This document shows, in pieces, positions 18,879-25,208 of a stretch of 32,443 nucleotides of DNA. The notes beneath the pieces were generated by a model. It did no database searches, was not told the origin of the DNA, and saw only the letters and a program-made list of their open reading frames with translations. Positions within the stretch are counted from its first letter, which is position 1. Each line of letters begins with the position of its first letter. A program made the translations under genes and the position numbers. Source of the stretch: Synechococcales cyanobacterium PMM_0082 (GTDB lineage Bacteria > Cyanobacteriota > Cyanobacteriia > Pseudanabaenales > Pseudanabaenaceae); contig CASBQR010000006.1 in assembly GCA_949127865.1 (NCBI GenBank), forward strand, positions 1 to 32,443. Direction: 5' to 3'.

Positions 18879-21800
18879 ATGTACGACAAAATTTCTTCAA
18901 ATTGCCAAAAACTACACATTAACCAAGCGATCGCCACGGATTATTTGGTCACCACACCAGATGCCTTAATTTCGGACATTCTTAAAATTTGGCAGCCCTC
19001 TAATTTGGGGTGTGTATTAGTACAACAGCATGATTTCCTTCTAGGGATATTTACCAGTAGTGATATTGTGCGGACATTGGCAAGATCGTCACTAGAGCAT
19101 ACAACCGTCTCGGAAGTGATGACACCAAATGTCGTAACACAACGTTTATCAGAGTGCGGAGATCCTTCGGCATTGTTAAAGGTTTTACAACAACATCACA
19201 TTCGGTTTCTTCCCATTCTGGGCGATCGCGATCACGTAATAGGCATTGTCTCGTTAGAAAGCTTGATTACCCTATTACAAACAGAATTTGATGATAAAGT
19301 CGCGGCATCACAACTGGAACAGCAGCAGACAGAGGCTTTACTCCATCACTACGAGCGCATTGTTTCCGCAACACCCGACTGTATCTCTCTAGTTGATCGA
19401 AACTATATCTATCAAGTTGTTAATGAATCTTACTTAACTTGGAATCAGAAATCTGCCGATGAGATTGTGGGACATTCTATAGCCGATCTGGTTGGACAAG
19501 AACTTTTTGAGACTCTGGTAAAACACTATCATGATCTTTGTCTGGCTGGAGAACCTCAGACAATTTTCCATACTTCTAAGGTCTATGCTGATGGTAAACA
19601 AAGATATATTAAAGCCACCTATAGCCCTTATGTAGAATTAGATGGCACAATCTCAGGTGTAGTTGCGAATATTCACGATCTGACTGATGCCAAATTAGCA
19701 GAAGATGCTCTACGCGAGAGTGAAGAGAGATTCCGTCAAATGGCTACAAATATTCATGAAGTATTTTGGCTGACGGATATTGATTTAAGCCGATTGATTT
19801 ATATTAGTCCCGCTTATGAACAGATTTGGGGTCGTAGTTGTGCTAGCCTCTACGAGAACCCTATGTCATTTCTGGAAGCAATTCACCCAGATGATCGAGC
19901 CACGGTATTTAATACCATTCAACAACATTGTCTAACTGGCTTTAGTCATGAGTATCGCTTACTTCATGACGACGGTACCATTAGTTGGATATGGGAGAGG
20001 GGTTTTTCAGTGCATGATGATTCAGGAACACCCTATCGGTTGGTTGGGATTTCTCAAGATATTACTGATCGCAAGCAAGCTGAGGAACAATTAAAGAAAA
20101 GTGAAGCTTTTTTGGCTGAGACTCAGGCGATCGCTCATATTGGTAGTTGGCAGCTTGATATCCAAACACAGAAAGTTACTTGGTCAAAAGAACTTTTTCG
20201 GATGTTTGGGCTTGATCCAGAGCAACCAGAGCCTTCTTATACCGATTTTCTACAGTTGATTTACGCAGATGATCGAATAATACTTCAAGAGCTTGTAGAA
20301 CAGGCATCGATACATGGAACTCCATATAGTATTATCTGCCGCGCACTTCTTCCCGATCAATCTATTCGTTACCACGAAGGAATTGGTGAAGTTGAAATAA
20401 ATGATCAGGGACAAGTCATTCGGTTATTAGGTACTGCTTTAGACATCACCGATCGCAAAAAATTAGAAAATGCTTTACAAGATTCTGAAACCAAGCTCAA
20501 TGACATCTTAAATAGTGCTATAGCAGCAATTTCTCGCCATATGGTTAAGGCAGATGGGAGTTGGGAAAATGACTATATTTCTAATGGCTGTGAACTGATT
20601 TCTGGTTTTACTGTTGCTGAATTAAATGCTGACAAATTCCTATGGAGCCGCCGCATTAATCCAGAAGATCTCCAAGCGATAGAAGCTCAAGCTTATGCAG
20701 ATATCTTTGCTGAACGTCGTGGCACCTATATCTATCAACTGCGCCATAAAGATGAATCTTGGCGGTGGATTTCTCAAACAAATTGTTCACGTTGGGATGC
20801 ATCTCATAATGCTTGGTCGGTTACGATCATTTCTTCAGATATCAGCGATCTCAAGCAAGCAGAAGCAGCTTTAAGATCTAGCGAATCTAGGAGTCGAGCA
20901 ATTCTAGCAGCAATTCCTGATCTAATCATCTTAGCAAATGCCGATGGGGTGTATCTAGATTACGTGATTGGTAATCGTCAGTTTAGTATCATTCCCGAAG
21001 AAGTTGAAATAATCGGCAGATCGATGGCAGATTTTATACCTGCTGAAGTTTGGCAGCGCCATTCCCATTATATTCAGAGAGCCTTGCATACAGGTGAGTT
21101 ACAAATATACGAGCAAACAGTGCGACTGCGCGATCGCCCGCATCATGAAGAAGTCCGTATTATCAAAAGTGGTGAAAACGAAGTCTTGTTTATAATTCGC
21201 AACATCAGCGATCGCAAGCAAGCTGAAGAATTATTGCGGCATAGTGAAGCAGCTTTAATTGAAGCTCAAAGTGTTGCTCATATTGGTAGTTGGCAGTTTG
21301 ATCTCCAAACACAAAAAATTACTTGGTCAAAAGAACTTTTTCGGATGTTTGGGCTTGATCCAGAGCAACCAGAGCCTACCTTTACCGATTATCTGCAGTT
21401 AATTTATGCAGATGATCGAATAATACTTAAAGAGTCCGTAGAACGGGCAGTGACACATGAAATTCCATATCATATTGACTACCGTATAGTTCTTCCCGAT
21501 CAATCTATTCGTTACCACGAAGGAATTGGTGAAGTTGAAATAAATGATCAAGGACAAGTCATGCGGTTATTTGGTACTGCTTTGGACATCACCGATCGCA
21601 AGCATCTTGAAAATACTATTCGAGAAGGAGAGGCGTACTTGCAAAGCCTTATACAAAACGCTCCAGTAATTCTCTACGGATTGAATAGTACGGGAGCTAT
21701 TACTGTATTAGAAGGGCACGGACTAGAATCCTTAAACATAAAGCCATCCGAACTTATTGGGCAGTCAGTTTTCGACTTACTCTCCGCGTACCCACAGGTT

Positions 21801-24089
21801 CTAGAAGGAATTCGCTCCGCTCTTACTGGTAATATCGCCACGCCTTGGGTAACGCATCTAGGGAATTTTGTCTTTGAAAATCGGTTTACAATGCTGCATG
21901 ATCAAAATGGTGAGATTTCGGGGCTGATTGGAGTAGCAACTGACTGTACAGAACGCGATCGCGCTGAAGAGGCTTTGCATAGGCAATTACTCCAAACTCA
22001 AGTCCTTAGTCTTATAGTTCAGCAGATCCATGACTCTTTAGATCTAGACACTACTTTTAATGCAGTGGTTTCGACCGTTGGCAAATTTTTAGAAATTGAT
22101 CGACTGGCAATTACTCAGTATATGGCTGAACCGCAAATTTGGAGACCCGTAGCTGAATATAGGATAAATTCAACCATTCCTTCGATTTTGGGAGTCAGCA
22201 TCCAGAGTAATAATCCTATGTCTGAGCAATTACTTAAAGGTGAGGGCATTTTTATTGATAGTAAATCTTCTGACAAAGATAAAGTAAATTACCAATACGC
22301 TCATACCTTTGTGGGCAGCTGGTTTATGATTCCATTGATCGTCAATAACATAACTTGGGGCGCAATTACTGCGAATTATCACGACCGCCAACATCTATGG
22401 GAAGCTGACGAAATAGATATCATAAATGCCATTTCAAAACAAATTGCGATCGCCATTCAACAAGCAACACTTTATCAACAGGTGCAGCAAGACGCACAGA
22501 AGGAGCGATTACTGCGTATGCTGGCTGAGCGGATTCGTCAATCTCTTGAACTAGATGAAATCCTCGTCTCTGCAACTTTTGAAGTTCGACAATTCCTCCA
22601 AACCGATCGAGTTGTGGTCTTCAGAGTTGACCCCGCGATCAATGGTATGGGAAAAGTCATTGCCGAATCCGTGATTGAACCTTGGCAAAAACTATTGGGA
22701 CAAAAACTGGAGGATGGCTGTTTTCGGCAAAATGGCTACGATCTAATGTATCAAGAAGGTTGCGTCCGTGCAATTACTGATATTGATAGTGGCGAGATCA
22801 CACCTTGTCATGCTGATTTCCTACGGCAACTAGATGTACGCTCCAATTTAGTAGTGCCAATTAGGCAAGCCGACAATCTTTGGGGCTTACTGATCGCTCA
22901 CCAATGCGATCGCCCTCGGAAATGGACAAGAGGAGAAATTGACTTTCTGCAACAACTAGCTGAGCAGGTTGGTATAGCTATTCAACAATCCTCTCTCTAT
23001 GAGCAGTTACTACAAGAACTAAGCCATCGAAAACGTGTTGCTAATGCTCTAGAACGACTAAATCAACAGTTGGAGCAAAAAGTTGAAGAACGAACGGCAG
23101 AACTCCAAAGCATTTTTCAGCTTGCTGCCGTTGGCATTGCCCAAACAGATGCCCAAACCAATTACTTCCTAAAGGTAAATCAGAAATTCTGCGAAATTAT
23201 CGGATATACCCATGCCGAACTCCTAAGTAAAACTTTCCGAGATATTACTCATCCTGACGATCTGCAATTAACTGATACCTTTGTCTATCGTCTTCAAATG
23301 CAAAAGATCCAAGAATATACTTTGGAAAAACGTTATATCCGCAAGGATAATAAAGTCATCTGGGTTTTAAATACAGTATCTCTTTTGCGAAACCCTGATG
23401 GCACCGCCAAATATAGGATTGCGATCATACAAGATATTACCGATCGCAAATATGCCGAAGAAACTATACAGCGATCGCTTGTTGAGAAAGAAACACTGCT
23501 TAAAGAAATTCACCACCGCGTTAAAAATAACATGCAACTTGTTACAAGCTTAATGCGGTTGCAAGCCTCACAAATTGAAGACCCAACATTGTTGGCAGCA
23601 TTCACGGATAGCCAAAATCGTATTCATACTATGGCTCTGATTCATGAACATCTTTACCAATCTCAAAATCTCGCTCAAGTTGACTTCTATGCTTATCTGA
23701 AGGCATTGGTAGAAAGTTTATTTCATAGTTATACAACTAGTGACAGTGGCTTAACTTATCAGGTTACAGTTGAAGCAATACTAAACCTTGATGCGGCTAT
23801 TCCCTGTGGACTGATTGTGTGCGAACTAGTATCAAATGCCCTAAAATATGCTTTCTTGGGACGACAACATGGGACAATTTGGGTGGAATTGGGCAATCAA
23901 GGCAAAAATTACTCACTAGTTGTCAAAGACGATGGGATCGGACTACCCGAAAACTTCGATCCAGAGTCTACAGCCTCACTGGGCTTAAGATTAGTGACTG
24001 GGCTAGTGGAGCAGCTTGATGGTAAATTAGCAGTAATAAAAGAAACTGGGACTATATTCTCAATCAAGTTTCCAATAGAAAACACATAA
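18879..24089 (+). CDS. Multi-PAS/GAF sensor histidine kinase, candidate cyanobacteriochrome
   Basis: A 1736-residue soluble sensor kinase. Order by residue: CBS pair 10-140; PAS at about 155-272, 282-400, 409-528, 535-660, 672-780, 788-908 and 915-1030; GAF1 1053-1195; GAF2 1225-1370; coiled coil about 1375-1410; PAS 1407-1525; HisKA_2 with EIHHRVKNNMQ (H1545/H1546); HATPase with N1653 in CELVSNALKYAF and the G-box DDGIGLPENF. Most PAS units end in the linker DITDRK. GAF2 has the DXCF motif D1279-G-C1281-F1282 and the canonical bilin pair C1310-H1311 in ITPCHADFL, then NLVVPI and LWGLLIAHQC, as in DXCF cyanobacteriochromes. GAF1 has neither cysteine. There are no membrane segments. The PAS at 409-528 and 788-908 are near-copies. 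It ends 21 bases before the receiver-kinase gene. Bilin binding is inferred. Confidence 0.92.
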   Translation: MYDKISSNCQKLHINQAIATDYLVTTPDALISDILKIWQPSNLGCVLVQQHDFLLGIFTSSDIVRTLARSSLEHTTVSEVMTPNVVTQRLSECGDPSALLKVLQQHHIRFLPILGDRDHVIGIVSLESLITLLQTEFDDKVAASQLEQQQTEALLHHYERIVSATPDCISLVDRNYIYQVVNESYLTWNQKSADEIVGHSIADLVGQELFETLVKHYHDLCLAGEPQTIFHTSKVYADGKQRYIKATYSPYVELDGTISGVVANIHDLTDAKLAEDALRESEERFRQMATNIHEVFWLTDIDLSRLIYISPAYEQIWGRSCASLYENPMSFLEAIHPDDRATVFNTIQQHCLTGFSHEYRLLHDDGTISWIWERGFSVHDDSGTPYRLVGISQDITDRKQAEEQLKKSEAFLAETQAIAHIGSWQLDIQTQKVTWSKELFRMFGLDPEQPEPSYTDFLQLIYADDRIILQELVEQASIHGTPYSIICRALLPDQSIRYHEGIGEVEINDQGQVIRLLGTALDITDRKKLENALQDSETKLNDILNSAIAAISRHMVKADGSWENDYISNGCELISGFTVAELNADKFLWSRRINPEDLQAIEAQAYADIFAERRGTYIYQLRHKDESWRWISQTNCSRWDASHNAWSVTIISSDISDLKQAEAALRSSESRSRAILAAIPDLIILANADGVYLDYVIGNRQFSIIPEEVEIIGRSMADFIPAEVWQRHSHYIQRALHTGELQIYEQTVRLRDRPHHEEVRIIKSGENEVLFIIRNISDRKQAEELLRHSEAALIEAQSVAHIGSWQFDLQTQKITWSKELFRMFGLDPEQPEPTFTDYLQLIYADDRIILKESVERAVTHEIPYHIDYRIVLPDQSIRYHEGIGEVEINDQGQVMRLFGTALDITDRKHLENTIREGEAYLQSLIQNAPVILYGLNSTGAITVLEGHGLESLNIKPSELIGQSVFDLLSAYPQVLEGIRSALTGNIATPWVTHLGNFVFENRFTMLHDQNGEISGLIGVATDCTERDRAEEALHRQLLQTQVLSLIVQQIHDSLDLDTTFNAVVSTVGKFLEIDRLAITQYMAEPQIWRPVAEYRINSTIPSILGVSIQSNNPMSEQLLKGEGIFIDSKSSDKDKVNYQYAHTFVGSWFMIPLIVNNITWGAITANYHDRQHLWEADEIDIINAISKQIAIAIQQATLYQQVQQDAQKERLLRMLAERIRQSLELDEILVSATFEVRQFLQTDRVVVFRVDPAINGMGKVIAESVIEPWQKLLGQKLEDGCFRQNGYDLMYQEGCVRAITDIDSGEITPCHADFLRQLDVRSNLVVPIRQADNLWGLLIAHQCDRPRKWTRGEIDFLQQLAEQVGIAIQQSSLYEQLLQELSHRKRVANALERLNQQLEQKVEERTAELQSIFQLAAVGIAQTDAQTNYFLKVNQKFCEIIGYTHAELLSKTFRDITHPDDLQLTDTFVYRLQMQKIQEYTLEKRYIRKDNKVIWVLNTVSLLRNPDGTAKYRIAIIQDITDRKYAEETIQRSLVEKETLLKEIHHRVKNNMQLVTSLMRLQASQIEDPTLLAAFTDSQNRIHTMALIHEHLYQSQNLAQVDFYAYLKALVESLFHSYTTSDSGLTYQVTVEAILNLDAAIPCGLIVCELVSNALKYAFLGRQHGTIWVELGNQGKNYSLVVKDDGIGLPENFDPESTASLGLRLVTGLVEQLDGKLAVIKETGTIFSIKFPIENT
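20133..20459 (+). repeat. Duplicated PAS module, copy A
   Basis: This encodes residues 419-527 of the large kinase and is a near-copy of 21276-21602, offset by exactly 1143 bases (381 codons). Two blocks are identical base for base: 20176-20234 (59 bases) equals 21319-21377, and 20347-20407 (61 bases) equals 21490-21550. Between the blocks the copies differ. Identity including silent positions points to recent duplication or gene conversion. Confidence 0.9.
21276..21602 (+). repeat. Duplicated PAS module, copy B
   Basis: The second copy (residues 800-908) of the module at 20133-20459. Only the GSWQ/GLDPEQPEP region and the PDQSIRYHEGIGEVEI region are base-identical; the middle helix region (residues about 844-868) has diverged. 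Homologous recombination between copies could delete two PAS units in frame. Confidence 0.9.
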
Positions 24090-24110: not shown

Positions 24111-25208
24111 ATGACAATACAAATACTTATTGTTGAAGATGAAAATATCATTGGGATGGATTTGAAGGCAACATTACAAAAAATTGGCTACTCCGTTCTT
24201 GCCATAGTTTCCTCTGCCGAAAAAGCATTTTCTATATTGCAGAAGCAAAGACCCGATCTGATCCTGATGGATATTCATTTGAAGACTTCAATGAATGGAA
24301 TTACGGCGGCGGCGGAAGTACGAAAATCTTGGGGTATTCCAGTAGTTTTTTTAACAGCTCATAGTGATGCTGCTACACTGACCAAAGCCTATGAGACAAG
24401 ACCTTTTGGTTATGTTACAAAGCCATTTCACCAAAGAGATTTACAGATCGCTATTGAAATCGCCTGCTCAAGACACGAAGCTGAGAAAAATCTTCAGATG
24501 GCAGTGACTAAAGAACGGGAATTAGGTGAACTAAAATCTCGATTGTTAGCTACTGTGATTCATGATATTCGTAACCCTTTGGCAGTAATTGGTTTGGGTG
24601 TCGATCTGTTGGAGATGAGTATTAGCGATTCGATCTCGTCCCATCAAGAAAAACGACTTAGAAAAATTCGTGATGCTAATCAATTTATTCAGCAACTTCT
24701 TAATGAGGTTCTGGAATTAGAGCATTTAGAATCTGAGAAATTAGCTTTTCGTCCTGAATCAATTGATTTAGTCCAATGGTGCATCGAGTTTATTGAGGAA
24801 ATCCAACTTTTAACTAGCAATCAGATTTCTTTCTCTTGGCAAGGTACCGAAACTCTGGTTTTTATGGATGCAATTCTACTCCAACGTATTTTCAGTAATT
24901 TGCTATCCAATGCCATTAAGTATTCTCCCCCAGATAGTCCTGTTGAATTTCACCTGAACTTAACCTCAGATTTGGCAATATTTCTAGTTAGCGATCGCGG
25001 GATTGGGATTCCCCTAGAAATGCAGGAAAGATTATTTGAGCCTTTCCAACGTGCTGTTAATGTCGGCAAAATAGTAGGAATGGGGCTAGGGCTATCTATT
25101 GTCAAAACCTGTATCGATCTTTGTCAAGGTGATATTCAAATGCAATCAACTTCAGATCAAGGCACACAGGTTACAGTTAGCTTGCCAATTTTTACTATGT
25201 CTTTGTAA
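24111..25208 (+). CDS. Receiver-histidine kinase hybrid
   Basis: A 365-residue protein with a receiver domain followed by a full kinase. The receiver (1-118) has E9 and D10, phospho-acceptor D54 in LILMDIHL, T82 in LTAHSD and K104 in VTKPF, so it is complete. A coiled linker (about 120-140) leads to HisKA, ATVIHDIRNPLAVIG with H151. HATPase_c follows with SNLLSNAIKYS (N-box), SDRGIGIP (G1) and GMGLGLSIVKT (G2). There is no output DNA-binding domain, so it probably passes the signal on by phosphotransfer. Gene order predicts that its receiver is the target of the large kinase 21 bases upstream, making a relay H1545/H1546 to D54, then H151 to an unidentified regulator elsewhere. Pairing is inference. 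Confidence 0.93.
   Translation: MTIQILIVEDENIIGMDLKATLQKIGYSVLAIVSSAEKAFSILQKQRPDLILMDIHLKTSMNGITAAAEVRKSWGIPVVFLTAHSDAATLTKAYETRPFGYVTKPFHQRDLQIAIEIACSRHEAEKNLQMAVTKERELGELKSRLLATVIHDIRNPLAVIGLGVDLLEMSISDSISSHQEKRLRKIRDANQFIQQLLNEVLELEHLESEKLAFRPESIDLVQWCIEFIEEIQLLTSNQISFSWQGTETLVFMDAILLQRIFSNLLSNAIKYSPPDSPVEFHLNLTSDLAIFLVSDRGIGIPLEMQERLFEPFQRAVNVGKIVGMGLGLSIVKTCIDLCQGDIQMQSTSDQGTQVTVSLPIFTMSL

Follow-up and report, generated by a model that had tools for sequence, protein, structure and literature searches.

The best overall explanation, and one that we consider quite probable, is that the second GAF domain (GAF2) of a 1736-residue kinase encoded in the window (the whole stretch of DNA analysed, 32,443 nt) is a dual-cysteine DXCF cyanobacteriochrome (CBCR) sensor, set in a cytoplasmic multi-sensor histidine kinase that would signal to a partner protein. 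The reading of GAF2 as a DXCF CBCR, proposed in the initial annotation, is supported by its cysteine motif, by sequence matches to TePixJ and other CBCRs, and by its predicted fold, tree neighbours and tuning residues; that the kinase would sense light through this domain likewise has good support from homology. Judged by its sequence, GAF2 is one more DXCF cyanobacteriochrome of a large known subfamily. The features discussed below are:

18879..24089, + strand: sensor kinase, 1736 aa; CBS pair, several PAS, GAF1, GAF2 (cyanobacteriochrome), PAS, HisKA_2, HATPase_c (ORF, Pfam)
18912..19283, + strand: CBS (Bateman) pair, CBS1 GIFTSSD and CBS2 GIVSLES (Pfam CBS; best PDB match 2ef7, E 7.5e-14)
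20106..20468, + strand: PAS unit, duplication copy 1 (versus copy 2, 78.5% amino acid identity over 121 residues and 89.6% nucleotide identity over 326 bases)
21249..21611, + strand: PAS unit, duplication copy 2 (same comparison)
22038..22460, + strand: GAF1, no bilin cysteines (Pfam GAF_2, residues 1054-1194; alignment)
22548..22988, + strand: GAF2, predicted DXCF cyanobacteriochrome GAF, residues 1224-1370 (Pfam, PDB matches, AlphaFold2 model, tree, Foldseek)
22713..22724, + strand: DXCF motif D1279-G1280-C1281-F1282, containing the second Cys (sequence, alignment)
22761..22763, + strand: third cysteine C1295, at the TePixJ R507 position (alignment with TePixJ)
22806..22811, + strand: canonical bilin Cys C1310 and H1311 (sequence, alignment)
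23505..23732, + strand: HisKA_2 dimerisation/phosphoacceptor domain, HHRVKNN at residue 1545 (Pfam E 1.2e-28)
23811..24080, + strand: HATPase_c, N box CELVSNALKYA and G boxes
24111..25208, + strand: partner gene, REC (D54)-HisKA (H151)-HATPase_c, 365 aa, 21 bases past the kinase stop codon (Pfam)

Domain Organization of the Kinase

Pfam places in order CBS domains, a PAS series, GAF domains at residues 1054-1194 and 1224-1368, a further PAS, HisKA_2 (1543-1618) and HATPase_c. The motifs of a HisKA_2 sensor kinase are intact: the HHRVKNN phosphoacceptor box, and the N and G boxes of HATPase_c. A PHY domain was found neither in this protein (by Pfam) nor elsewhere in its genome. The high identity of the two duplicated PAS units suggests that the duplication is fairly recent, or that the copies have been homogenised. 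A search of 39 related genomes with the whole kinase gave a single match, partial and covering part of the CBS and PAS regions, and the viral contigs searched held no relative.

Sequence and Predicted Fold of GAF2

The two motifs described in the initial annotation, D1279-G-C1281-F1282 and C1310-H1311, lie 29 residues apart in the second GAF of the kinase, as it had said; NLVVPI (starting at 22845) and LWGLLIAHQC (starting at 22878) are also where it placed them, and its span for the domain (22551-22988) agrees with the Pfam GAF at 1224-1368. GAF2 thus combines the defining features of a cyanobacteriochrome (a CBCR-type GAF without PHY, with a canonical Cys followed by His) with the second Cys of the DXCF subfamily. 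The contrast drawn with GAF1, which lacks both cysteines, holds in the alignment. The two-Cys motif did not arise in any of 2000 shuffles of GAF2, and in an alignment of about 80 homologous rows, 54 have C at the second-Cys position and 68 have it at the canonical one, a conservation that argues against a chance motif. The spacing of 29 was considered as a possible peculiarity, and rejected: dual-Cys homologues show 27, 28, and 29. GAF2 does have small departures, namely G1280, C1295 (a column that is R, E, or K in most homologues), and a one-residue insertion between the cysteines. The TePixJ counterpart of C1295, R507, has been described as touching a propionate of a crystal neighbour (PMC6955287).

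In a PDB sequence search, the hits of GAF2 to structurally solved CBCRs range from E 3e-41 (6oap, the best) to E 1e-20; GAF1 matches the same set far more weakly. The alignment to CBCR GAFs and the structure prediction that had been suggested as a check both give a TePixJ-type match: in sequence, TePixJ (3vv4) is matched at E 5e-31, with DGCF...PCH of GAF2 aligned over DPCF...ECH, while a Foldseek search with the AlphaFold2 model (mean pLDDT 90.5; C1281 and C1310 each close to the beginning of a different helix) returns bilin-binding GAFs as its top matches, with TePixJ (4fof) at TM 0.82. GAF2 lacks the sequence marks of the extended red/green (XRG) CBCRs: it has DGCF where these have W-x-D-x-x-L, and V1260 and L1318 in place of the trapping Phe pair.

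Close relatives of GAF2 are found in 127 of 145 cyanobacterial genomes in a class-wide search (E < 1e-30), so that the domain family is evidently common. The closest, at 54-59% identity, are in proteins of about 770 residues (L021-L026), where the dual-Cys GAF is in tandem with a GAF of the red/green (WxDxxL) type.

Position in the GAF Tree

The GAF tree was built without the two Cys columns. The six rows nearest to GAF2 nevertheless all have both cysteines (support 96/66), as do 17 of the 22 rows in the starred set around it, which also includes RcaE-type single-Cys rows. TePixJ is not sister to GAF2. While the best tree puts GAF2 with dual-Cys GAFs, an AU test does not reject joining it to the GAF1 type (p 0.36) or to the red/green CBCRs (p 0.16), the domain being short and its deep branches poorly resolved; the constraint joining GAF2 to the outgroup is roughly equivalent to a change of root.

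Colour Tuning and Photocycle

In DXCF proteins, the canonical Cys holds the bilin and the DXCF Cys is linked to its C10 in the dark, a link that light breaks (PMC11284453, PMC6628166). Typical domains are blue/green and contain phycoviolobilin (PVB; PMC11284453). The beta-2 and helix-4 positions are occupied by trapping Phe residues in red/green and teal-DXCF types (PMC5240096). The corresponding residues of GAF2 are V1260 and L1318, the Val and Leu of TePixJ, where the red/green references in the alignment have F and F; this favours blue/green over blue/teal, and a blue/green photocycle would be the likeliest for GAF2. The colours are a residue-based guess, since the tree does not place GAF2 specifically with TePixJ.

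By analogy, phycocyanobilin (PCB) would be attached, most likely through C1310, and at least part of it isomerised to PVB. In the 15Z dark state C1281 would form a second thioether, to bilin C10, giving blue absorption; light would flip C15=C16, the C1281 link would break, and a green-absorbing 15E state would result. The C-terminal helix of GAF2 and then one PAS domain might relay the signal to the HisKA_2/HATPase core, which would phosphorylate the neighbouring REC-HisKA-HATPase protein at D54 of its receiver, with the CBS pair and PAS array acting as metabolic inputs to the same kinase.

One alternative, possible though not our preference, is that GAF2 switches without the classical blue/green PVB cycle, whether by keeping PCB (blue/orange or blue/red), by holding a PCB/PVB mixture, or through weak ligation by C1281. 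Photoproducts of DXCF CBCRs are known to range from teal through orange (PMC6628166), full-length Tlr0924 contains mixed PVB and PCB populations (PMC4067208), and both the RcaE-type rows in the starred set and the extra residue past the DXCF motif would be compatible with such behaviour. The argument for the classical cycle is that GAF2 keeps D, C, F, and CH as well as both TePixJ-like tuning residues.

The CBS Pair

The ribose motif G-h-h-T/S-x-x-D is complete in CBS1 (GIFTSSD), while CBS2 (GIVSLES) lacks the D. Adenylate sensing by the pair is therefore possible; from these motifs we would call it no more than plausible. The CBS domains might instead be merely structural, or serve in dimerisation, with no ligand role, which would make the kinase a simple light sensor that also receives PAS inputs. 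This is also a tentative alternative, somewhat short of an even chance: the missing D of CBS2, which is often absent from compact homologues of the kinase (described below) too, is in its favour, and it is opposed by the complete T-x-x-D of CBS1 and by the fusion of CBS domains to dual-Cys GAFs, in kinases with the same partner, in several lineages.

The initial annotation had seen in this kinase a joining of light and energy status. The joining of light and CBS sensing is backed by its recurrence with the same partner gene, but it is less singular than was worded: that CBS and CBCR domains should be combined only in the 1736-residue kinase was rejected, as the combination is found in other cyanobacteria. 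Nothing specific on CBS domains joined to cyanobacteriochromes, or on CBS-CBCR kinases, was found in the open-access literature, which is weak evidence of novelty. SesA (Tlr0924) has an N-terminal CBS domain joined with a DXCF GAF. Because of this precedent, and of the restriction of the literature search to open-access papers, no claim to a new kind is made.

A Recurring Two-Gene Module

Loci for comparison were picked across 145 genomes by the sequence of the partner protein, not by light sensing. Homologues at E < 1e-75 occur in 26 of these genomes, including the window's own. Of the other loci, 21 were examined (20 new regions, plus L063, first fetched by its CBCR), and in 20 of them the partner homologue is directly downstream of a HisKA_2 kinase gene on the same strand, mostly overlapping it or a few bases away; in L125, no HisKA_2 kinase gene was found upstream.

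Ten of the kinases are compact (737-764 residues; L063, L118-L123, L128, L129, and L133), each joining CBS domains and HisKA_2 with a single dual-Cys GAF that retains both DXCF and CH. They come from ten genomes in five families (codes f13, f16, f21, f24, and f25), indicating that light-plus-CBS sensing is a recurrent design. A longer kinase with CBS domains and three CBCRs (L072) has the same partner. As a separate observation, the Pseudanabaena galeata plasmid NZ_CP112875.1 (L056, 5975-9308) encodes a CBS, dual-Cys GAF, and PAS protein that lacks a kinase domain; a receiver-kinase gene comes next.

In a tree of the module (HisKA_2/HATPase plus partner), the ten compact kinases form one starred clade, with L072 and the window apart from it. 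The CBS-DXCF label requires three changes on this tree, two of them forced by starred branches, which suggests that the CBS-plus-DXCF front end was probably joined to the HisKA_2/partner core more than once. The window holds an elaborated, separately placed version of the CBS-DXCF-HisKA_2 module, although its branch is long and its place in the module tree correspondingly unsure.

The recurring pairing of CBS-DXCF kinase and partner is of more interest than the single DXCF domain. If the CBS domains do bind adenylates, a conserved cyanobacterial kinase would read light colour and energy charge together, and the compact homologues of about 740 residues would make this light/adenylate idea easy to test in vitro. 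A stronger version, which we think unlikely, is that CBS-DXCF-HisKA_2 kinases and REC-HisKA-HATPase partners form a widespread, undescribed module acting as a coincidence detector for adenylate status and blue/green light, with a front end assembled repeatedly, including in the window.

Chromophore Supply

The genome encodes a heme oxygenase, and has four strong phycobilisome protein matches as well as weaker ones. A PcyA-family gene was not found in the assembly, which is 85% complete; a same-genus relative has one, and at least one is present in 22 of the 24 genomes searched. Gaps in the assembly are the likeliest reason for its absence. It is very improbable that GAF2 is a former cyanobacteriochrome that has lost bilin binding and become a dimerisation or metabolic sensor domain: the missing PcyA gene, the odd C1295 and insertion, and the loss of one or both cysteines from other GAFs of this genome (L005, L008) could be read that way, but GAF2 retains its two Cys, its Asp, and its His, none of which GAF1 of the same protein has, and the occurrence of PcyA in the genus and in most genomes searched, like that of the phycobilisome genes in this one, also counts against such a loss.

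Other Light-Sensor Genes

Elsewhere in the genome, a 920-aa ORF (L003, contig C117) encodes a histidine kinase with both a LOV-type sequence (GGNCRFLQG) and a DXCF GAF (DDCF...PCY), two types of blue-light sensor in one protein. The GAFs of two chemotaxis receptors (L006, contig C74, and L009, contig C225) keep the DXC cysteine (DACI, DPCIP) and have lost the canonical one (PDH, PAH), consistent with the DXCIP lineage (PMC6628166).

Comparison With Known Systems

Several known or related proteins resemble GAF2 or its kinase, each in different respects. The dual sensor histidine kinase CBCR 6oap is the best PDB match to GAF2 in both sequence and fold, but has a Y in place of the DXCF Cys, making it a single-Cys type. 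Tlr0924/SesA and Tlr1999/SesB of Thermosynechococcus (PMC4067208, PMC8846402) have DXCF two-Cys photochemistry in common with GAF2; their output is c-di-GMP synthesis or breakdown, while the window protein is a histidine kinase.

The blue/green DXCF GAF of TePixJ (3vv4, 4fof, 4glq) is like GAF2 in its D-x-C-F and C-H motifs, its tuning Val and Leu, and its fold. It differs in having a Cys spacing of 28 rather than 29, DPCF rather than DGCF, and R507 at the position of C1295; it is also part of a chemotaxis-type receptor rather than a kinase, and the tree does not make the two domains sisters.

The compact kinases have a CBS region about twice as long as that of the window kinase, lack its PAS array and GAF1, and are separate from it in the module tree; the one compact-kinase GAF compared (L035_366) is elsewhere in the GAF tree than GAF2. 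Like the window kinase, they have CBS domains, HisKA_2, and a GAF with both cysteines, and the gene immediately downstream encodes the same partner.
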